Assembly: GCA_020851035.1 (NCBI GenBank)
Contig: JADZDM010000025.1
Span: forward strand, 186,001 to 250,000
Reading direction: 5' to 3'
Length of the DNA: 64,000 bases
Origin: Gemmatimonadaceae bacterium
GTDB taxonomy: Bacteria; Gemmatimonadota; Gemmatimonadetes; Gemmatimonadales; Gemmatimonadaceae
Shown: piece by piece, positions 21,850 to 31,838 of the stretch
Layout of the letters: the number at the start of each line of letters is the position of its first letter
Numbering within the stretch: the stretch's first letter is position 1
The notes under the pieces: generated by a model
What the model saw: only the letters and a program-made list of their open reading frames with translations
Database searches by the model: none
Told to the model about the DNA's origin: nothing
Made by a program: the position numbers and the translations under genes

Positions 21850-23058
21850 TCAGGACGTCGCGAGGGCCCGGGATGCCTCGCGGGCACAGGCCGCCAGCAC
21901 CACCGCCCCGGTCACGATGGCCCCCTCGGCCACGTCGAAGCGCGGGGAGTGAGCCGCCGTGGGTTCCTCGCCCGGGTTGCGGGCGCCGATGCGGAGGAAA
22001 CAGCCGGGGATCCGCTCCATGTAGAAGGCGAAGTCCTCGCCCCCCATGTTGGTGATGCCGAACGGCACCACGCTGTCGTCACCGAGGGCATGGATGGCGG
22101 CGCTGCGCGCCCACGCCGCCTCGCGCGCCGGATTCACGATCGGCGGCGTGCCATGCCCGATCGTGATGCTGGCCACCACGTTGTGCGCGGCGGCGACGTC
22201 ACGCGCGATGCGGGTGACCTCGGTCACCAGTCGCGCCCTCGTGTCGGGATCCATGGCGCGGAGGGTCCCGGTCAGCTCCGCCGTCTCCGGAATCACGTTC
22301 GGTGCCACGCCGGCGTGGATGCTGCCGACGGTGCAGACGGCAGGCCGCGCGGGGTCCAGGCGCCGGGCGACGATGGTCTGGAGCGCCGTGATGACCGCCG
22401 CGGCGGCGACGATCGGGTCGTCCGCCTCCTGAGGACGCGCGCCATGTGCGCCGCGTCCGTGCAGCGTGATGGTGAACTCGTCGGCCGACGCGGCGAGCGG
22501 CCCGGCCTCGGCCACCACCTGACCCACCGTGAAGCGCCGGTCCACATGCCCACCGAAGATCGCCGACACACCGTCGAGGGCGCCGCTGGCGAGGATCGCG
22601 ATGGCGCCGGCCCCGATCTCCTCCGCCGGTTGCAGCACGAGCAGCACGTCTCCCGCCGCCGGTTCGCGCAGCAGGTCCATCGCTGCACCGATGGTCCAGG
22701 TGGCGTGGACGTCGTGCCCGCAGGCGTGCATCACGCCGGGCGTGACGGAGGCGAATGGCAGGCCCGTGGCCTCGGTGATCGGCAGCGCATCGATGTCACC
22801 GCGCAGCGCGACGACCGGCGCATGGCGGTCACGCCCGGGGAGGCGCGCGACGATCCCGGTGCCGGCCACGCGCCGGATCCCGTCCACGCCGATCGACTCG
22901 AGCGCCGCGACCAGCCGGGCGGCCGTCTCGTGCTCGGCGTTCGACAGCTCGGGATGCCGGTGCAGCGTGCGGCGGAGCGTGAGCAGCGCCGCAAGTTGCG
23001 CGTCACTGAAGCGGTCCGTGGCGCGCGCGGGGGCAAGCGGGACGTTGCCGGCGGTCAT
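21850..23058 (-). CDS. M20D amidohydrolase, candidate N-succinyl-L-amino acid desuccinylase
   Basis: Metal-dependent aminoacylase-like enzyme of 402 aa, M20D family. Typical motifs are LRRTLHRHPELSNAE, VALRGDIDALPI, MHACGHDVHATW, LVLQPAEEIGAGA and the late NMGGEDFAFYME. The family removes acyl groups from N-acyl-L-amino acids. Its gene follows the racemase and GNAT genes on the same strand (42-bp gap), which points to release of L-amino acids from N-succinyl-L-amino acids as the last step of that route. The specificity is inferred from context, not from residues. ATG at 23056-23058 is used; another lies 24 bp upstream. Confidence 0.88.
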   Translation of the reverse strand: MTAGNVPLAPARATDRFSDAQLAALLTLRRTLHRHPELSNAEHETAARLVAALESIGVDGIRRVAGTGIVARLPGRDRHAPVVALRGDIDALPITEATGLPFASVTPGVMHACGHDVHATWTIGAAMDLLREPAAGDVLLVLQPAEEIGAGAIAILASGALDGVSAIFGGHVDRRFTVGQVVAEAGPLAASADEFTITLHGRGAHGARPQEADDPIVAAAAVITALQTIVARRLDPARPAVCTVGSIHAGVAPNVIPETAELTGTLRAMDPDTRARLVTEVTRIARDVAAAHNVVASITIGHGTPPIVNPAREAAWARSAAIHALGDDSVVPFGITNMGGEDFAFYMERIPGCFLRIGARNPGEEPTAAHSPRFDVAEGAIVTGAVVLAACAREASRALATS

Positions 23059-23100
23059 GTCGGTGTGGTGGCGTGGTGACACGGCAAGCGCCGCGGCGGA

Positions 23101-24216
23101 CTACAGCGACTCCGTCCGGACCGTGAGGTCGTCGATGCGGTCGACGTCGACCTGCACGCCGATGCCCGGGCTGGTGCGCGGCACCTGCACCATGCCCTCG
23201 GCGTCCATGGTCCACTCCGGCGTGACGATGTCGCGTGCCCAGTACCGCGCACTCGGGCTCAGGTCGCCCGGCTTCTGGAAGTTGCTGAGCGACGCGAGCG
23301 CCACGTTGTACGCGCGACCGATGCCACTCTCGAGCATGCCGCCGCACCAGACCGGGATGCCGTTGGCCTCGCAGAAGTCGTGGATGGCCAGCGATTCCGC
23401 GAAGCCGCCCACCCGTCCCGGCTTGATGTTGATCAGGCGGCCGGCGCCTAGCGTGACCATGTCCTGCGCGCGCGCGAGGGAGGTGATCGACTCGTCGAGG
23501 CACACCGGCGTCTTCAGCATGCGCTGGAGCTGGCCATGCCGCACGATGTCCTCCCACGCGAGCGGTTGCTCGAACATCATCAGGTTCATCGCGTCCATCG
23601 CCACCAGCGCCTCGGCGTCGTCGAGGGTGTAGGCGTTGTTGGCATCCGCCATCAGCGGGGCGTCGGGGAAGGCCTCGCGCACGGCGCGCACGTATGCGAC
23701 GTCCTTTCCGGGCATGATCTTGAGCTTGATCTTGCGGTACCCCTCGTCGAGTGCGGCGCGCACCTTCCCGACGAGCGCCTCGGGTGAGGCCTGGATACCG
23801 AGGGAGATGCCGACCGGGATCGCGGCACGGGTGCCGCCGATGAGCCGCGCGAGCGGCGTGCCGATGCGCACCGACTCCACCCCCCACATCCCCATCTCGA
23901 CGGCGGCCTTCGCCATCAGGTGCCCGCGGAAGTCCTCCTCGAGCACGGCGAAGACGTCGCCCGGGGCGTTGAATCGGCGCCCGATGACACGGGGCGCGAT
24001 CCAGCGGCTGATGGCCAGCCAGGCGGTGTCGATCGTCTCCGAGGTGTAGTTCGGGAGGTCGTCGGCGACGCATTCGCTCCACGCGCTGGCGCCGCTGGCA
24101 TCGTGCAGCTCGAGCAGTGCGATGCGACGGTCGGTCATGGTGCCGGAGGAGATCCGGAACGGCTCGCGGAGGGGGAGCCGGATTTCGCGGAGCGTGATGC
24201 CGGTGATCTGGAGCAT
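23101..24216 (-). CDS. menC: N-succinylamino acid racemase / o-succinylbenzoate synthase (enolase superfamily)
   Basis: Enolase-superfamily enzyme of 371 aa in the NSAR/OSBS family. The capping domain opens with LPLREPFRISSGTM. Catalytic lysine motif KIKLKI (KxK), metal ligands in MADANN, FEQPLAW and CLDESI, and the second-face lysine in NIKPGRVGG are all present. Members catalyse o-succinylbenzoate synthesis for menaquinone, or racemise N-succinylamino acids, or both. No other menaquinone genes are nearby; the neighbours are a COG3375-type GNAT and an M20D amidohydrolase, the set that converts D- to L-amino acids in Geobacillus. I therefore favour racemase function; the gene symbol is the family name only. 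Confidence 0.85.
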   Translation of the reverse strand: MLQITGITLREIRLPLREPFRISSGTMTDRRIALLELHDASGASAWSECVADDLPNYTSETIDTAWLAISRWIAPRVIGRRFNAPGDVFAVLEEDFRGHLMAKAAVEMGMWGVESVRIGTPLARLIGGTRAAIPVGISLGIQASPEALVGKVRAALDEGYRKIKLKIMPGKDVAYVRAVREAFPDAPLMADANNAYTLDDAEALVAMDAMNLMMFEQPLAWEDIVRHGQLQRMLKTPVCLDESITSLARAQDMVTLGAGRLINIKPGRVGGFAESLAIHDFCEANGIPVWCGGMLESGIGRAYNVALASLSNFQKPGDLSPSARYWARDIVTPEWTMDAEGMVQVPRTSPGIGVQVDVDRIDDLTVRTESL

Positions 24217-24239
24217 GTGCGGAGGCTGGGGCGGTCGGG

Positions 24240-25067
24240 TCAGAGCGGGGCGGAGAGCACGTAGTATGGCAGCGCGCCGGCCGCGCTGCGCACGAAGCGG
24301 GTGACGCGCCAGCCGTCGTGGAGCCGGGTGAAGGCGGCACGCACGGCGATGCGCCAGGCGAGGGCGCGGTCGCTGCTGGCGGCCTGCACGACGGTGAGGT
24401 CGTCGGGGAGCGGCACGCGGAGATGCCGGGCATCCACGGTGGAGACGGCCACGGGGGTGCCGTCACGGCCGATGGTGATGGCGCTGGGGAGGCGGTCGTC
24501 GCCGTCGGCGGGCAGGCCGGCGCGGTGCGCGCCGGCGGCGTCCAGGGCCCAGTGGTAGACGAAGCGGTCGGTCGGCATGGCGCCGTGCAGCACGCTGCCG
24601 GTGTTCTCGCCGTACATGTTCTCGACGTACTCGTGCGGGGCGGCGCCGAGGTGGTTGATGTTGAAGTGTGCGTTCCGGGCGACGAGGGGGTCGGCGGTCC
24701 AGTACATGCGGGTGACGCCGAGGCGCCGGACGGTGTCGGCCTGGTGCTGCTTGAGGCGCTCGCCGAGGCCGATGCCGCGCGCCTCGGGGAGCACGGCGAG
24801 CATGTCGGACCAGTGGACGAGCTGTCCATCGCGCACGCCGGTCATGCCGAAGACGAATCCGACGAGCCGGTGGTGGGGCGTGAAGGCGCCGGCGGTGACA
24901 CCGCCGATCTTCTGGCTGACGCGGAGGATGGCGCCCGGGACGCGCTCGGCGAAGCCGTGGCCCCAGGTCTCGTCCTGGAGCGCCACGGCGGCGTCGTAGT
25001 CTTCGAGGGTGCCGAGGTCGCGGATGGTGAGGTCGGCGAGGGCGAATCCGGGGGTCGGCAGGGGCAT
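24240..25067 (-). CDS. GNAT-family acyltransferase (COG3375-like), candidate D-amino acid N-succinyltransferase
   Basis: The 275-aa product shows an acetyltransferase fold: LTIRDLGTLEDYDAAVALQDETWG at the start (LTIRDLG is characteristic), the substrate segment VHWSDMLAVLPEARGIGLGERLKQ with the acyl-CoA loop RGIGLGE, and the family-specific stretch WTADPLVARNAHFNINHLG. COG3375 proteins are typically encoded beside NSAR and M20 genes. In the characterised Geobacillus pathway the GNAT enzyme succinylates D-amino acids. ATG at 25065-25067 is used; the frame extends to 25148 but overlaps the divergent promoter. The stop codon is 23 bp before the racemase gene. Confidence 0.78.
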   Translation of the reverse strand: MPLPTPGFALADLTIRDLGTLEDYDAAVALQDETWGHGFAERVPGAILRVSQKIGGVTAGAFTPHHRLVGFVFGMTGVRDGQLVHWSDMLAVLPEARGIGLGERLKQHQADTVRRLGVTRMYWTADPLVARNAHFNINHLGAAPHEYVENMYGENTGSVLHGAMPTDRFVYHWALDAAGAHRAGLPADGDDRLPSAITIGRDGTPVAVSTVDARHLRVPLPDDLTVVQAASSDRALAWRIAVRAAFTRLHDGWRVTRFVRSAAGALPYYVLSAPL

Positions 25068-25126
25068 GCGGGGGGCGGCTCTTGCGGTGGCGGCGGCGGC
25101 GCGGTAGCGATAGGTGCGCACAAAAC

Positions 25127-25134
25127 TGTATACA
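25127..25134. promoter_or_regulatory. Candidate GntR operator in the divergent promoter region
   Basis: The perfect palindrome TGTATACA lies in an 83-bp gap between two divergent operons. It is an AT-rich island in very GC-rich DNA. TACAAT at 25131-25136 also reads as a rightward -10 box, which would place the transcript start close to the ATG at 25151, with no ribosome-binding site visible. Palindromes with a GTATAC core are common operators of GntR-family regulators, and a GntR gene is second in the rightward operon. The link is an inference. Confidence 0.5.
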
Positions 25135-25150
25135 ATCTTCCCGCCCAAGC

Positions 25151-26923
25151 ATGAGCCTCCGCCACTGCCCGCGCAAGGCCGCCCTCACCGCCGCCGCCGC
25201 CTCGATCGTCCTCGCCGCCTGCGGCCGCGGCGCCGTCGCGGGGGGCTCGGCCGGCACCACCGCCGCGGCGCCCGGATCCTACGACATCGTGATCAGCAAC
25301 GGCCACGTCGTCGACGGCACCGGCAACGCCTGGTTTGCCGGCGATGTCGGCATCCGCGGTGACCGGATCGCCACCATCGCACCGGCCGGCGCCCTCGCCC
25401 GTGCACAGGCCACCACCCGCATCGACGCGGCCGGCAAGGTCGTCGCGCCGGGCTTCATCGACATCCAGGGGCAGTCGGTCTTCCAGTTCACCGTCGGTGA
25501 CGGCCGCGTGGTCGGCAAGGTCTCGCAGGGCATCACCACCGAGATCCTCGGCGAGGGCACCACGCCGGCGCCGCTGAACGCCGCGATGGTCGCCCTGCTC
25601 GAGTCGCAGCGCGGCTCGCGCGACGACTCGCTGGCCGCGACGGCGTACGGCACCTTCACCGGCCCGCACGGCTTCGGCCGCTGGCTGGACGCGATGGAGC
25701 AACACGGCACGTCGGTGAACGTGGGCTCGTTCCTCGGGGCCGCCACCGTGCGCGTGTACGCCAAGGGCTACACGCGCGGTGACCCGTCACCCGCGGAGCT
25801 CGACACCATGCGCGCCGTCACGCGCAACGCGATGCAGGACGGTGCCTTCGGGATCGCCAGTGCACTGATCTACCCGCCGGGCAACTTCGCCACCACCGGC
25901 GAGCTGGTGGAGATGGCCAAGGCGATGGCGCCGCTCGGCGGCGTCTACATCACGCACATGCGCTCCGAGGCCGATGGCTACCTCGAGGCCATCGACGAGG
26001 TGCTGCGCATTGGCCGCGAGGGCGGGGTGCCGACCGAGATCTACCACCTGAAGGCCGGCGGCGTGCGCAACTGGCCGAAGGCCGCCCAGGCGGTGGCGAA
26101 GATCGACTCGGCGCGCGCGGCCGGCCAGGACATCGCCGCCGACATGTACCCGTACACCGCCGGCGGCACCTCGCTCTCGGCGTGCACGCCGCCCTGGGCC
26201 ACCGAGGGCGACAAGCTGCTGGACCGGCTGCGCGATCCTGCCACCCGCGCGAAGATCATCGCCGAGATGCAGGCGCCGCGGAACAGCTGGGAGAACCTCT
26301 GCGCACTCGCCACGCCGGCGGGCATCGTCACCGCGGGCTTCGAGCACCCCGACTGGAAGCAGTACGAGGGCAAGCGACTCGCCGAGATCGCCGCCGATCG
26401 CCGGACCGACTGGGCGAACACGATCGTGGACGTGCTGCTTGGCACCGAGGGGCGTGTCGGCATGCTGGTCTTCATGATGTCCGAGCCGAACGTGGAGATG
26501 CAGATGCGGCAGCCGTGGATGAAGTTCGGCACCGATGCCGACGGCCTCGATCCCGACTCCGCGAAGGGCCTGGCCCACCCGCGCTCCTACGGCACCTTCC
26601 CGCGCATCCTCGGGCACTACGTGCGCGAGCGGCGGGTGATGACGCTGGAGGAGGCGGTGCGCAAGATGACCTCCGCGGTGGCGAACCGGCTCTCGATCCG
26701 CGACCGCGGCCAGTTGCGCGAGGGCTTCCTCGCCGACGTGGTGGTCTTCGACCCGGCGACCATCATCGACAACGCCACCTACACCGACCCGCACCGGCTC
26801 TCCACCGGCGTCTCGACGGTGATCGTGAACGGGGTGCGGGTCTGGAGTGACGGAAAGCACACCGGGGCGAAGCCTGGCCGCGTGGTGCGGGGCCCCGGAC
26901 ACATTGCCGCGGTGGCGCGATGA
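25151..26923 (+). CDS. N-acyl-D-amino acid deacylase-like amidohydrolase, lipoprotein
   Basis: Amidohydrolase-superfamily protein of 590 aa close to D-aminoacylases. The N-terminus has a lipobox (SIVLAACGRG), so it is exported. The beta-sandwich begins YDIVISNGHVVDGTGNAWF. Where D-aminoacylases have an HxH metal pair after PGFID, this protein reads IQGQS (residues 105-109). A glutamate (E135) sits near the bridging-ligand position, and the two later histidines THMRSE and IYHLKAGG and the aspartate in GTDADG are kept. The beta-metal site may thus be intact and the alpha site lost. ATG at 25151 starts the operon with no evident ribosome-binding site. Its TGA overlaps the GntR ATG. Confidence 0.85.
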   Translation: MSLRHCPRKAALTAAAASIVLAACGRGAVAGGSAGTTAAAPGSYDIVISNGHVVDGTGNAWFAGDVGIRGDRIATIAPAGALARAQATTRIDAAGKVVAPGFIDIQGQSVFQFTVGDGRVVGKVSQGITTEILGEGTTPAPLNAAMVALLESQRGSRDDSLAATAYGTFTGPHGFGRWLDAMEQHGTSVNVGSFLGAATVRVYAKGYTRGDPSPAELDTMRAVTRNAMQDGAFGIASALIYPPGNFATTGELVEMAKAMAPLGGVYITHMRSEADGYLEAIDEVLRIGREGGVPTEIYHLKAGGVRNWPKAAQAVAKIDSARAAGQDIAADMYPYTAGGTSLSACTPPWATEGDKLLDRLRDPATRAKIIAEMQAPRNSWENLCALATPAGIVTAGFEHPDWKQYEGKRLAEIAADRRTDWANTIVDVLLGTEGRVGMLVFMMSEPNVEMQMRQPWMKFGTDADGLDPDSAKGLAHPRSYGTFPRILGHYVRERRVMTLEEAVRKMTSAVANRLSIRDRGQLREGFLADVVVFDPATIIDNATYTDPHRLSTGVSTVIVNGVRVWSDGKHTGAKPGRVVRGPGHIAAVAR

Positions 26924-27630
26924 AGGCCTCGCCGGCGCCGGCGGCGCGCGGCGCGCGCCCGATGGTGGTCTACCAGACGCTGCGCGCGCGGATCGTGCGC
27001 GGCCAGCTCGCGCCGGGCTCACGCATCGTGGAGACCGACGTGGCGGCGCGGCTGCAGGTCAGCCGCCCACCGGTGCGCGGCGCGCTGCAGCGGCTGCAGC
27101 AGGAAGGGTACATCGTCGACTCGCCGTCGCTGCTGCAGTCGCGCCCGATGGTGGCGCCGCTCACCCGAGAGGATGCGATGGAGCTGTTCTCGATCGTGGC
27201 CGAGATCGAGGGACTCGCGGCGCGCTGTGCGGCGCAGCTCGATGCCGGGCCCCGCGAGCGGCTCGCGACCGCACTGGCGGCACTGAACGATCGCCTCGGG
27301 AAGGCGAGCCGGGCGAAGGTGCCACGGCACGACCTGCTCTACGACCTGGATGAGCGGTTCCACCGCGCCTACGTGACCGCGGCTGCCGGCCCGCGCCTGC
27401 GGGCCCTGCATGACGTGGTGAAGCCGCAGGCCGAGCGCTACGAGCGCCTCTACGTCAGCCTGCTGTCGCGCGGGCTGGCGCCGTCGGTGGCGGAGCATGC
27501 GGCCATCATCCGTGCTATCCGCGCCGGCGATGCCGATGCCGCCCAGCGTGCCGTGCAGGCCAACTGGCGCAACGCCGCCGACCGGCTCGGGCGCGTGATC
27601 TCCTCCGTCGGCGAGCGTGGGCAATGGTGA
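26920..27630 (+). CDS. GntR-family transcriptional regulator with FCD domain
   Basis: DNA-binding regulator of 236 aa. The N-terminal winged helix is typical of GntR (VYQTLRARIVRGQLAPGSR, then VSRPPVRGALQRLQQEGYI). The C-terminal all-helical region matches an FCD effector domain (RFHRAYVTAAAGPRL, EHAAIIRAIRAGDADAA). Its ATG overlaps the stop of the D-aminoacylase-like gene (ATGA), and its own stop overlaps the start of the next gene, so the three are translationally coupled. It probably controls both divergent operons; the effector might be a D-amino acid or N-acyl-amino acid, which is an inference. Confidence 0.9.
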   Translation: MKASPAPAARGARPMVVYQTLRARIVRGQLAPGSRIVETDVAARLQVSRPPVRGALQRLQQEGYIVDSPSLLQSRPMVAPLTREDAMELFSIVAEIEGLAARCAAQLDAGPRERLATALAALNDRLGKASRAKVPRHDLLYDLDERFHRAYVTAAAGPRLRALHDVVKPQAERYERLYVSLLSRGLAPSVAEHAAIIRAIRAGDADAAQRAVQANWRNAADRLGRVISSVGERGQW

Positions 27631-29993
27631 GACGCATGGTGCGCGCTGGCGCGCTCGTCGCGATGGTGTGCGGCGTGGATGTGCTGGCGGCGCAGCGGTC
27701 CCCGGCCGTGATCCCGGCCGCTGGCAGATATGCGCCCGTGGCGACCGCGCTCAGCGCGTTCATCGAGCACGAGATGGCGGTGCAGGGAATCCCGGCGCTC
27801 TCGATTGCGCTGGTGGATGACCAGCAGGTGGTCTGGTCACGCGGGTTCGGCATGGAGGATGCTGCCGCACGCCGCCCCGCGACCGCACGGACCGTGTACC
27901 GCGTGGGGTCGGTGTCGAAGCTCTTCACCGACATCGCCGTCATGCAGCAGGTCGACGCCGGCAGGCTGGACCTCGACGCGCCGGTGCAGCGCTACCTGCC
28001 CGGGTTCACGCCGCGGAATCCGTTCGGCACGCCGGTCACGCTGCGTCACCTGATGTCGCACCATGCCGGCCTCGTACGCGAGCCGCCGGTGGGCCACTAC
28101 TTCGACGACACCGCGCCGAGCCTCGCTGCCACGGTCGCCAGCCTGAATGGCACCTCGCTGGTGGCCGCGCCCGGCACGCTGCACAAGTACTCCAACGCCG
28201 CCATCGCGGTCGTGGGATACGTGCTGGAGCACGACAGCGGCACGCCGTTCGCCGACTACCTCCAGCGGCGGGTGCTGCGCGTGCTCGGCATGGAGTCGAG
28301 TGCGTTCCGGCCGACCGCGGCCCTGTCGGCGCGTGTGCCGCAGGCCGTGATGTGGAACTACCACGACCGCCCCTTCGCGGCGCCGACCTTCCAGCTCGGC
28401 ATGGCACCGGCGGGGAGCATGTACGCCACCATGCCTGACCTGGGGCGCTTCATCAGCATGCTGTTCCGCGATGGTGCCGCGTCGCGCGGGCGGCTGCTGA
28501 AGGCCGGCACCCTCCGGCGGATGTGGGAGCCGCAGTTCGCGCCGCCCGGTGCGACGGTTGGCTCCGGGCTGGGTTTCGGCATCGGGGAGCTGGACGGCGA
28601 GCCCGTCGTCCAGCACGGCGGTGCGATCTACGGCTTTGCCACGCAGCTCACGGCCATGCCGGACGCGAAGCTCGGCGTGGCCGTGAGTGCGGCGAAGGAC
28701 GGCGTCAACGCGCTCACGGCGCGCATCGCGCGCGAGGCGCTGCGGTTGATGCGCGCGGCCCGCGCCGGCACTCCGCTGCCGTCCATCATGCAGACGACGA
28801 TCGTGCCGCCGGCGCTGCTGGAGCGGCTGCGTGGCGACTGGGGGGACGGTGACTCGCTGGTCACGATCGTGGCGCGTGACACGATGGCGAGTGTGTCCGG
28901 CAGCATGCTGGAGATGCAGCTCGGCATGCGCCACTGGCGTGGTGACACGCTGGTCGCCGACGACGGGCTCTCGTTCGGCCGCCGCCTGTGGCTGGACGGC
29001 GACGAGATGCGCCTGGGTGACCGCCGGCTCCGGCGGCGCGCGCGCACCGCCGCACTGCCGCCCGCACCGCCCGCGCACTGGACGGGACTGGTCGGGGAGT
29101 ACGGCTGGGACCACAACGTGCTCTACATCCTCGAGCGCGAGGGCCGGCTGCATGCCCTGATCGAGTGGTTCTTCGACTACCCGCTGACCGAGGTGTCACC
29201 CGATGTGTACGCATTCCCGAACTCGGGGCTGTATGCCGGCGAGCGCATCGAGTTCACCCGGGATGCCCGACGCCGCGGCACCACCGCGCGCGCGGCCGGC
29301 GTGGAGTTCGCACGCCGCCCGATCGTGGGCGAGGATGGCGGGGTGTTCCGCCTCACGCCGCTGAAGCCGGTGGCGGCACTGCAGGCCGCGGCACTCGCCG
29401 TGCAGCCGCCGTCCGAGACGGGCACCTTCCGCGCGCAGGCGCTGACGGAGCTGGTGGCGCTCGATTCCACCATCCGGCTCGACATCCGCTACGCGTCGGA
29501 CCGCAACTTCATGAGCACCCCGTTCTACAGCCAGGCGCGCGCCTTCCTGCAGCGGCCCGCCGCCGAGGCGCTGGTGCGCGCGCATCGCGCGCTGGCGCGC
29601 CAGGGCTACGGACTGCTGATCCACGACGGGTACCGGCCGTGGTACGTGACGAAGATGTTCTGGGACGGCACGCCGCCGGACAAGCACGACTTCGTGGCGG
29701 ATCCGGCGTCGGGGTCACGGCACAACCGCGGGTGTGCCGTGGACCTGACGCTGTTCGACCTGCGCACCGGCGAGCCGGTGATGATGACCGGCGGCTACGA
29801 CGAGATGTCGGACCGCTCGTATCCGCAGTACCCAGGCGGGACGTCACGCCAGCGGGCACTGCGCGAGATCCTGCGGGCCGCGATGGAAGCCGAGGGATTC
29901 AGCGTGTTCGCGGCCGAGTGGTGGCACTTCGACTACAAGGACTGGCGGTCGTACCGCATCGGCAATGCGCGGTTCGAGGATCTTTCGCGGTAG
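27624..29993 (+). CDS. Fusion of beta-lactamase-family serine hydrolase and VanX-type D-Ala-D-Ala dipeptidase
   Basis: Two enzymes in one 789-aa exported protein. Signal peptide: GALVAMVCGVDVLAAQ. Domain 1 (about 36-380) is class C beta-lactamase/DD-peptidase-like, with SVSK at 96-99, YSN at 189-191 and an HGG motif (VVQHGGAIYG). A beta-rich linker region follows (about 390-590). Domain 2 (about 595-789) is a VanX/DdpX D,D-dipeptidase: R671 in GYRPW, the zinc motif SRHNRGCAVD with H700 and D707, and E765/H768 in EWWHF. All catalytic residues of both domains are kept. Domain 1 would act on peptide or amide substrates and domain 2 would cleave D-Ala-D-Ala. The ATG overlaps the GntR stop. Degradation of D-dipeptides fits the cluster better than vancomycin resistance, because no vanH/vanA genes are seen. 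Confidence 0.88.
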   Translation: MVRRMVRAGALVAMVCGVDVLAAQRSPAVIPAAGRYAPVATALSAFIEHEMAVQGIPALSIALVDDQQVVWSRGFGMEDAAARRPATARTVYRVGSVSKLFTDIAVMQQVDAGRLDLDAPVQRYLPGFTPRNPFGTPVTLRHLMSHHAGLVREPPVGHYFDDTAPSLAATVASLNGTSLVAAPGTLHKYSNAAIAVVGYVLEHDSGTPFADYLQRRVLRVLGMESSAFRPTAALSARVPQAVMWNYHDRPFAAPTFQLGMAPAGSMYATMPDLGRFISMLFRDGAASRGRLLKAGTLRRMWEPQFAPPGATVGSGLGFGIGELDGEPVVQHGGAIYGFATQLTAMPDAKLGVAVSAAKDGVNALTARIAREALRLMRAARAGTPLPSIMQTTIVPPALLERLRGDWGDGDSLVTIVARDTMASVSGSMLEMQLGMRHWRGDTLVADDGLSFGRRLWLDGDEMRLGDRRLRRRARTAALPPAPPAHWTGLVGEYGWDHNVLYILEREGRLHALIEWFFDYPLTEVSPDVYAFPNSGLYAGERIEFTRDARRRGTTARAAGVEFARRPIVGEDGGVFRLTPLKPVAALQAAALAVQPPSETGTFRAQALTELVALDSTIRLDIRYASDRNFMSTPFYSQARAFLQRPAAEALVRAHRALARQGYGLLIHDGYRPWYVTKMFWDGTPPDKHDFVADPASGSRHNRGCAVDLTLFDLRTGEPVMMTGGYDEMSDRSYPQYPGGTSRQRALREILRAAMEAEGFSVFAAEWWHFDYKDWRSYRIGNARFEDLSR

Positions 29994-30078: not shown

Positions 30079-31365
30079 CTACGGGATGATGGCCGGCCGT
30101 CCGGACGACGACGACACACCGGACAGTGTCGCGACGACGAGTGCGACGTACTGCGGGCCGAGCCAGCCGTTCGGGCCGTCGGCGTAGGTCTCGGTCGTGG
30201 AGTGCGCGTCCAGGCCGCGGCCGCCGGCGCTGAGCGTGATGGCGGGGATGCCCAGCGCGATCGGCACGTTGGAGTCGGTGCTGCCGATGCCGGGCGTGAC
30301 GGGGAAGCCGAGCACCTTGCCCGCCGCCACCGCGATGCGCACGACGCGCGCGCTGTCCGGCTGGCCGCCGGCGGGGCGGAGGCCCATGGTGTCGATGGTC
30401 ACCGTGAGCGGCACCTTGCTGTTGGGCCAGCGCGCACGCTCCTCGGTCAGTGCGGCCTGCACGGCCGCCTTGAACTTCGCATCGATCTCCGCCAGCGACG
30501 CGGCACTCTCGGAGCGCATGTCGATCTCCACCGCCCCGATCGCGGGGATGCTGTTCACCGAGGTGCCGCCGCTCACCACGCTCGCGCTGAACGTGGTCTT
30601 CGGTGTGGCCGGCACGGTGAACTCCGACATCTTCGCGATCAGGCGCCCCATCGCGTGGATGGGATTGGGCATGCCGAACGCGCCGTAGCTGTGCCCGCCC
30701 GGGCCGCGGTACGAGACCTTGTATCGGTTGCTGCCGACGGCGCCGCTGGTGGCACCGAATCCGGTGCCGTCCACCGAGATGAAGTAGTCGATCTTGCCCT
30801 TCAACTCGCCGTTGAACAGCGCCCGCACGCCGCGGAGGTTGCCCGGGCCTTCCTCGCCGACGGTGCCGACGACGTAGACCATGCCCGCCGTGCGCACGCT
30901 GGCGGCGCGGAGGCCCTTCACCACGGCCAGCACGGTGGCGAGTCCGCGGCAGTCGTCACCGATGCCGGCGCCGGACAGCGTGGTGCCACGCGCCTCGGTG
31001 CTGTCACGCTTCACCGTCACGTCGGTGCCCTCGGGAAACACCGTGTCGAGGTGTGCCGAGAGCACGACGGTGGGCCCGGTGCCCGTGCCTGGCCGCTCGC
31101 CGATCACGTTGCCTTCCGCATCCATGTGCACGTTCGCGATGCCAAGCGCCTCGAGGCGTCGCTTGAACTCGGCGGCACGCACAGCCTCCTTGAACGGCGG
31201 CGCGGGGATCTGGCAAATGGACGTCTGCTGGTCGAGCGTCCATGCATTGTCGGCCCGGATGGCGGCCAGCGCATTCCGGATCGCGGCATTGCCGGACGGG
31301 ATGCTGATGGCCTGCGCCTGTGCCGCCGTGGCGAGGAGCAGCGGGAGGCAGGTCTTCCGGATCAT
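30079..31365 (-). CDS. Secreted M20-family peptidase (tripeptidase T/M20B-like)
   Basis: Metallopeptidase of 428 aa with a signal peptide (IRKTCLPLLLATAAQAQA). ATG at 31363-31365 is chosen because of it; the frame extends far upstream without such a signal. Metal-binding motifs are LSAHLDTVFP, SGAGIGDDCRGLA, VGTVGEEGPGNLRG and GSTDSNVP, and the lid/dimerisation domain starts at VSYRGPGGHSYGAF. The layout is that of M20 peptidases related to tripeptidase T. It ends against the D-amino acid cluster and could supply or finish peptides, but it is transcribed toward the cluster, not with it. Confidence 0.88.
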   Translation of the reverse strand: MIRKTCLPLLLATAAQAQAISIPSGNAAIRNALAAIRADNAWTLDQQTSICQIPAPPFKEAVRAAEFKRRLEALGIANVHMDAEGNVIGERPGTGTGPTVVLSAHLDTVFPEGTDVTVKRDSTEARGTTLSGAGIGDDCRGLATVLAVVKGLRAASVRTAGMVYVVGTVGEEGPGNLRGVRALFNGELKGKIDYFISVDGTGFGATSGAVGSNRYKVSYRGPGGHSYGAFGMPNPIHAMGRLIAKMSEFTVPATPKTTFSASVVSGGTSVNSIPAIGAVEIDMRSESAASLAEIDAKFKAAVQAALTEERARWPNSKVPLTVTIDTMGLRPAGGQPDSARVVRIAVAAGKVLGFPVTPGIGSTDSNVPIALGIPAITLSAGGRGLDAHSTTETYADGPNGWLGPQYVALVVATLSGVSSSSGRPAIIP

Positions 31366-31403
31366 GGGCGTGAGGGGCAGGGGGTGAACGACCGGCGCCG
31401 GCC

Positions 31404-31838
31404 TCAGAGACCGTGGTAGATCGCGAGGTACGCGGCGAGGCCGCCGAGCAGCGGGACGAGCAGGTAGATCGGGCGTGCCAGTACCGGGATACGATACGGC
31501 AGGATCGAGAGCAGCGCGACGATCACCCAGATGCCGATCTTCGCCCAGAGCCACCCGGGGATCCCGTTCGCCATCACCCCAAGGCGGGCGGCCTGGCCGA
31601 ATCCGCCGGCGATCACGATCAACATGCCCAGTCCGAAAACACCGGCGGTGAGGCCGCGGGTGCGCGCGGTGGCCTTGGTGCCCCCATTCGCGGCGTGGAT
31701 CGCGATCCCGCCGAGCGAGGTCATGGCGAGGAACATGCCGAGCAGGTGCAGATACTTGTAGAACGGCAGCGTCCGGAAGAACGGCAGTGCCGCCGTGGCG
31801 GCAGCGGCGGTGTCTTGCAGCATCGCGAGCAGAGTCAT
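31404..31838 (-). CDS. Small four-helix membrane protein, unknown
   Basis: Predicted 144-aa inner-membrane protein. Four hydrophobic segments are visible: YLHLLGMFLAMTSLGGIAI, AGVFGLGMLIVIAGGF, WLWAKIGIWVIVALLSIL and IYLLVPLLGGLAAYLAI. ATG at 31836-31838 is used because the upstream extension is rich in R, P and H and looks like non-coding sequence. I do not recognise the family beyond a general resemblance to small haem-copper or SirB-like membrane proteins, which is not strong enough to name it. It is 38 bp downstream-strand of the M20 peptidase start and may be its first partner. Confidence 0.6.
   Translation of the reverse strand: MTLLAMLQDTAAAATAALPFFRTLPFYKYLHLLGMFLAMTSLGGIAIHAANGGTKATARTRGLTAGVFGLGMLIVIAGGFGQAARLGVMANGIPGWLWAKIGIWVIVALLSILPYRIPVLARPIYLLVPLLGGLAAYLAIYHGL

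Follow-up and report, generated by a model that had tools for sequence, protein, structure and literature searches.

The 64,000-nt window analyzed here is part of contig C25 and comes from a Gemmatimonadota genome (4.97 Mb across 34 contigs) whose nearest named relative in the genome scan was LF-bin-339, a metagenome-assembled genome of the Gemmatimonadaceae. Between positions 21850 and 29993, the window carries six genes that probably constitute a repressor-controlled unit for the salvage of D-amino acids, in which exported hydrolases, import and cytosolic inversion would be combined. All six open reading frames (ORFs) were found in two facing operons separated by 83 bp, and the coordinates, strands and domains assigned to them in an earlier, sequence-only reading were borne out. 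The − strand encodes a GNAT N-acyltransferase (24240–25067; ATG start), an enolase-superfamily racemase of the N-succinylamino acid racemase/o-succinylbenzoate synthase (NSAR/OSBS) subfamily (23101–24216) and an M20D amidohydrolase (21850–23082). The + strand encodes a D-aminoacylase-like amidohydrolase (25151–26923; ATG start), an FCD-type GntR regulator (26920–27630) and a predicted secreted fusion protein (27624–29993). The divergent promoter region (25068–25150) runs between the facing ATG codons of the GNAT and D-aminoacylase-like genes; these start codons are the likeliest choices, and the GNAT frame is open further upstream from a TTG. The overlapping starts and stops on the + strand (26920/26923 and 27624/27630) support a single rightward transcript. 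The six-gene grouping exceeds chance: its core recurs in most of the GNAT loci fetched and its divergent neighbors occur above expectation.

In the proposed mechanism, the amidohydrolase, as a lipoprotein, and the fusion protein would free D-amino acids outside the cytoplasm from N-acyl-D-amino acids, the ends of peptidoglycan stems and D-containing dipeptides. A general amino-acid permease may then import them. In the cytosol, the GNAT would N-succinylate D-amino acids using succinyl-CoA. The resulting N-succinyl-D-amino acids and their L-counterparts would be interconverted by the NSAR, and the M20D enzyme would irreversibly desuccinylate the L-form. The target of the GntR regulator in the promoter common to both operons would be TTGTATACA(A/G), and accumulation of a ligand, probably a D-amino acid or an N-succinyl-amino acid, would derepress both operons.

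The leftward operon looks like a Geobacillus-type route for D-to-L amino-acid inversion. In Geobacillus kaustophilus, as reportedly described by Sakai et al. in 2006, a GNAT, an NSAR and an M20-family hydrolase are encoded in one operon and convert D- to L-amino acids irreversibly through N-succinyl intermediates, with succinyl-CoA as the donor. The window's GNAT, NSAR and M20 hydrolase likewise sit in one operon, as such a pathway requires; their roles were assigned from homology, context and coinheritance. The M20D protein (Peptidase_M20 and M20_dimer domains), a candidate N-succinyl-L-amino acid desuccinylase, scored 343.7 bits against TIGR01891 (cut-off 153.75), had YxeP (1ysj; E 3e-73) as its nearest solved structure and contained the motifs HACGHD, GDIDAL and PAEE. 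Its gene adjoins that of the NSAR in most relatives. The NSAR (MR_MLE_N/C domains) scored 323.9 bits against TIGR01928 (cut-off 200.65), a menC model, and its nearest solved structures were N-acyl(succinyl)amino acid racemases, with E-values down to 2e-95. Residues K164, K166, D191, E216, D241, K265 and R268 were invariant among 13 homologues. We take these to be the KxK motif, the D/E/D metal ligands, the second catalytic lysine and, three residues after it, a second-shell arginine. All catalytic residues of the Geobacillus-type pathway's NSAR are thus retained. The assignment of these three genes to this route in the sequence-only reading is supported by homology, operon order, the NSAR residues and co-occurrence of the core across the phylum.

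The GNAT is a candidate succinyl-CoA:D-amino acid N-succinyltransferase. It exceeded the cut-off for PF00583 (Acetyltransf_1) and had no close solved relative by sequence. An AlphaFold2 model (predicted local distance difference test score of 89.5) matched GNAT N-acetyltransferases best in the PDB, several of them CoA-bound, and this comparison confirmed the fold as judged from the model. The matches mostly spanned about 165–190 alignment columns, with an extra C-terminal part beyond. The GNAT sequence does not reveal which acyl donor is used, NSAR relatives also racemize N-acetyl amino acids and the best structural matches are acetyltransferases, all of which would suit a route through another acyl group, such as N-acetyl-D- to N-acetyl-L-amino acids. 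We consider this unlikely, as the homology and context match those of the Geobacillus operon, which is said to use succinyl-CoA.

To evaluate coinheritance, we profiled 150 Gemmatimonadota genomes. GNAT was present in 86 (84 at a stringent score) and a strong NSAR match in 89. None of the 150 genomes combined a MenD match above the family cut-off with a member of the MqnA/MqnD family (PF02621); the split largely follows family and is a clean swap of menaquinone pathways within one phylum. PF02621 was tallied in 98 genomes; the list used for coinheritance holds 97. In these 97 futalosine-type genomes, GNAT and NSAR were both present in 42 and both absent in 53, with one genome carrying only GNAT and one only NSAR. 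The two genes thus agree in 95 of 97 genomes (p 3e-25, a value that counts related species as independent and ignores shared ancestry). Of 46 MenD genomes, 38 carried both genes and four carried NSAR without GNAT (G034, G096, G132 and G134), the pattern expected if the enzyme doubles as an OSBS there.

These profiles bear on whether the enolase-superfamily gene is instead an o-succinylbenzoate synthase for menaquinone, with incidental neighbors. The NCBIfam model matched above its cut-off is indeed menC (TIGR01928), the protein shares subfamily and catalytic residues with NSAR/OSBS-subfamily MenC, and MenD-positive genomes keep the homologue even when GNAT is missing. Unlike such a MenC, the window's gene belongs to a futalosine-type genome (G000), which contains MqnA/MqnD-family genes and in which the profile search found no MenD above the family cut-off, and it belongs to a lineage set in which NSAR tracks GNAT. 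The window's NSAR is therefore best read as a racemase. A menaquinone role in this genome was rejected on these profiles and is highly improbable, being already nearly refuted; it is likewise very unlikely that the enzyme makes only o-succinylbenzoate, the outcome that the sequence-only reading had named as fatal to its proposal.

The GntR regulator contains both a winged helix-turn-helix and an FCD domain (PF00392 and PF07729, each over cut-off) and is a candidate local repressor. The promoter region it would share with both operons contains an inverted repeat, AACTGTATACAATC (reverse strand, GATTGTATACAGTT), at 25124–25137. A GTATAC-cored palindrome of this type (TTGTATACAA) occurred upstream of GNAT in 15 of 16 GntR-linked loci versus 3 of 21 others (Fisher p 1.3e-6); at a few GntR loci, the site was reduced to the GTATAC core with weak arms. 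Among seven aligned and otherwise diverged promoters, TTGTATACA was invariant, together with a short GCAAG. Based on the repeat and its association with these loci, TTGTATACAA-type palindromes are the predicted operator of the FCD-GntR. The site lies about where the rightward promoter would have its −10 element, which makes repression the likelier mode of action. In the window genome, the cluster's site was the sole match within one mismatch of ACTGTATACAAT, so the regulator probably acts locally. At two weaker sites (L094 and L095), none of the ORFs, whose domains were not searched, was clearly a D-amino-acid gene, and a wider GntR regulon in this genome was rejected. No pairing of TTGTATACAA with a GntR protein was found in the literature searched.

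According to comparison with Alcaligenes D-aminoacylase (1rjp/1m7j; E 1e-81), the first rightward protein (Amidohydro_3) is homologous to this enzyme over nearly its full length. The two also share the His, His and Asp of the β-metal site, the Asp being catalytic. In contrast to the Alcaligenes enzyme, the window protein has a predicted lipoprotein N-terminus, MSLRHCPRKAALTAAAASIVLAAC, and a variant metal site. The HxH after strand 1 is replaced by QxQ (IDIQGQS), and the metal-ligand Cys is lost, GEG standing for NCG with a conserved Glu next to the Cys position. The motifs THMRSE, YHLK and GTD are retained. Homologues at GNAT loci share this pattern, with IDIQ or IDMMDQS, GE[GAS], YHLK or FHLK, mostly G[TS]DA and, in most, HMR. 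The variant site thus looks like the mark of a conserved subgroup rather than of decay. The QxQ/Glu-site subgroup (window 25151–26923; homologues in L033–L072) is expanded, and homologues of the window protein number six to eight strong matches in many Gemmatimonadota genomes. The D-aminoacylase identity proposed from the sequence stands as homology; the name itself is not secure, given the replaced HxH and Cys ligands.

The last rightward gene encodes an S12 serine hydrolase domain of β-lactamase fold (PF00144, Beta-lactamase; 231 bits), a middle domain and a VanX/DdpX-type M15D dipeptidase domain (PF01427, Peptidase_M15; 108 bits). The S12 motifs SVSK96, YSN189 and HGG331, corresponding to SxxK, YxN and (K/H)xG, are intact. 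So are the VanX motifs GYRPW, SRHNRGCAVD698 and EWWHF765, which supply the substrate Arg, SxHxxGxAxD and ExxH. As in the D-Ala-D-Ala dipeptidases DdpX and VanX, the M15D active-site motifs are complete; unlike them, the domain is fused behind an S12 domain and a likely signal peptide, and reached no NCBIfam cut-off (NF007557, E 3.6e-40). Export of both hydrolases was judged by eye from the N-terminal sequences. A VanX-type catalytic domain might suggest glycopeptide resistance through destruction of D-Ala-D-Ala, with the remaining genes unrelated. We give this almost no credence: resistance VanX does not work beyond the cytoplasm, to which the predicted signal peptide would send the domain, no VanH or VanA is encoded among the six genes, and the fusion is linked to GNAT in several lineages. 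Resistance was rejected on the first two of these grounds. Ordinary alanine racemase could also take up the handling of D-Ala, and the inversion arm therefore more likely serves other D-amino acids. Supply of D-Ala to the NSAR by VanX is the weakest and least certain link in the salvage scheme.

We then compared gene neighborhoods using 60 loci fetched around GNAT and 80 named loci from the genome scan, some contigs being shared. GNAT-NSAR-M20D was the commonest core. Eight of the 60 loci had a divergent D-aminoacylase-like gene no more than 3 kb from GNAT, versus about 0.45 expected for ten paralogues per 4-Mb genome; both figures are rough, the loci having been counted by eye and one of the eight carrying the subtype of 38–40% identity. 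A fused VanX lay within 10 kb of GNAT in 3 of 39 genomes, the window genome excluded, versus about 0.2 expected. In these, the fusion was on the same strand just upstream of GNAT (G006), split into two genes (G015), or placed with a GntR gene divergently from GNAT (G033). FCD-GntR genes recur beside GNAT in relatives. Other neighbors include M19 dipeptidase, S13 carboxypeptidase, penicillin acylase, APC amino-acid permease, DAO-type oxidase and S12 enzymes. That GNAT neighbors are repeatedly enzymes of D-amino acids or wall peptides, or a permease, was counted in favor of salvage.

Variation among these loci also suits a different function, in which the cluster mainly detoxifies or degrades bulky exogenous D-amino acids, such as non-canonical ones or those of racemized soil protein, with D-Ala passing through alanine racemase and the fusion a mere passenger. 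Partner hydrolases vary widely, most GNAT genomes with a fusion carry it elsewhere, and in the same-genus genome G150 the other five genes are syntenic without a fusion at this place. This explanation is possible, if doubtful: five other loci, from separate lineages, also have the fusion close to GNAT (L064, where it is split, L068, L074, and two more from the named set, L130 and L160), and in the window its gene follows that of the regulator without a gap. In a second same-genus genome, G151, the D-aminoacylase, GntR and fusion genes occur in the window's order on a contig that ends at the D-aminoacylase start, before GNAT. The exact six-gene union is thus at most genus-level, and the theme is phylum-wide. 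As a conserved unit, the union was rejected at the scale of the phylum and is partly kept in the genus. Of the co-occurrence anticipated in the sequence-only reading, the GNAT/NSAR core held strongly and the complete set did not.

Several observations weigh against the salvage scheme. The hydrolases are predicted to be exported and the inversion enzymes cytosolic, so an importer is required, and no transporter is encoded among the genes of the window's cluster; APC permeases sit in the clusters of several relatives. Beyond the two main families, many relatives have no M20D gene close to GNAT, and the coinheritance statistic carries the phylogenetic limit given above. Finally, the D-aminoacylase-like protein lacks the HxH and Cys, and in the related enzyme PpOngB both His68 and His70 of the HxH are essential, their mutants being dead (PMC12017989), so that N-acyl-D-amino acid activity cannot be assumed. 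The path first envisaged, leading all the way from D-dipeptides to L-amino acids, leaves out the import that exported enzymes would require, and its VanX/D-Ala feed is frail.

The core chemistry is already known. Compared with the Geobacillus operon, the trio here, in the phylum Gemmatimonadota, is divergent from an FCD-GntR and from predicted exported hydrolases of D-amino acids or wall peptides, with a predicted operator between. This regulated, mix-and-match coupling to exported hydrolases appears undescribed: a literature search, with most subscription papers outside it, found no description of the cluster, the operator or the Men/futalosine control. The one paper that brought together Gemmatimonadota and D-aminoacylase dealt with another subject. 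There is about an even chance that the arrangement reflects a phylum-wide, modular salvage regulon: a dedicated FCD-GntR and TTGTATACAA would couple interchangeable exported hydrolases (among them QxQ/Glu-site amidohydrolases and S12-VanX fusions) to cytosolic inversion, the NSAR having been freed from menaquinone synthesis in futalosine lineages. If the cluster works as proposed, it would show how D-amino acids in dead cell walls, a nitrogen pool that turns over slowly, may be recycled by these widespread bacteria, and would make an operator, a regulator and a set of substrates available for testing. Studies of enzyme evolution still ask whether the natural role of NSAR/OSBS-subfamily enzymes is racemization or whether they are merely promiscuous OSBSs. 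The Men and futalosine lineages of one phylum provide a natural control: where OSBS is unneeded, the gene persists almost only with GNAT.

Further features were noted around these loci. A second M20-family peptidase gene (30079–31554, − strand) follows the cluster convergently and is kept there in both same-genus relatives. At L066, L070, L072 and L173, GNAT has no adjacent NSAR and lies near a DAO-type FAD oxidase, which suggests an oxidative alternative to inversion. Some genomes contain a second GNAT copy (L061, L149, L158; C14 and C71 of G033), one copy being beside a D-aminoacylase-like or S12-VanX gene and the other with NSAR. A penicillin-acylase homologue occurs near GNAT in two phyla (L043, L046 and L110; L118 and L156, the latter two in Ignavibacteriales).

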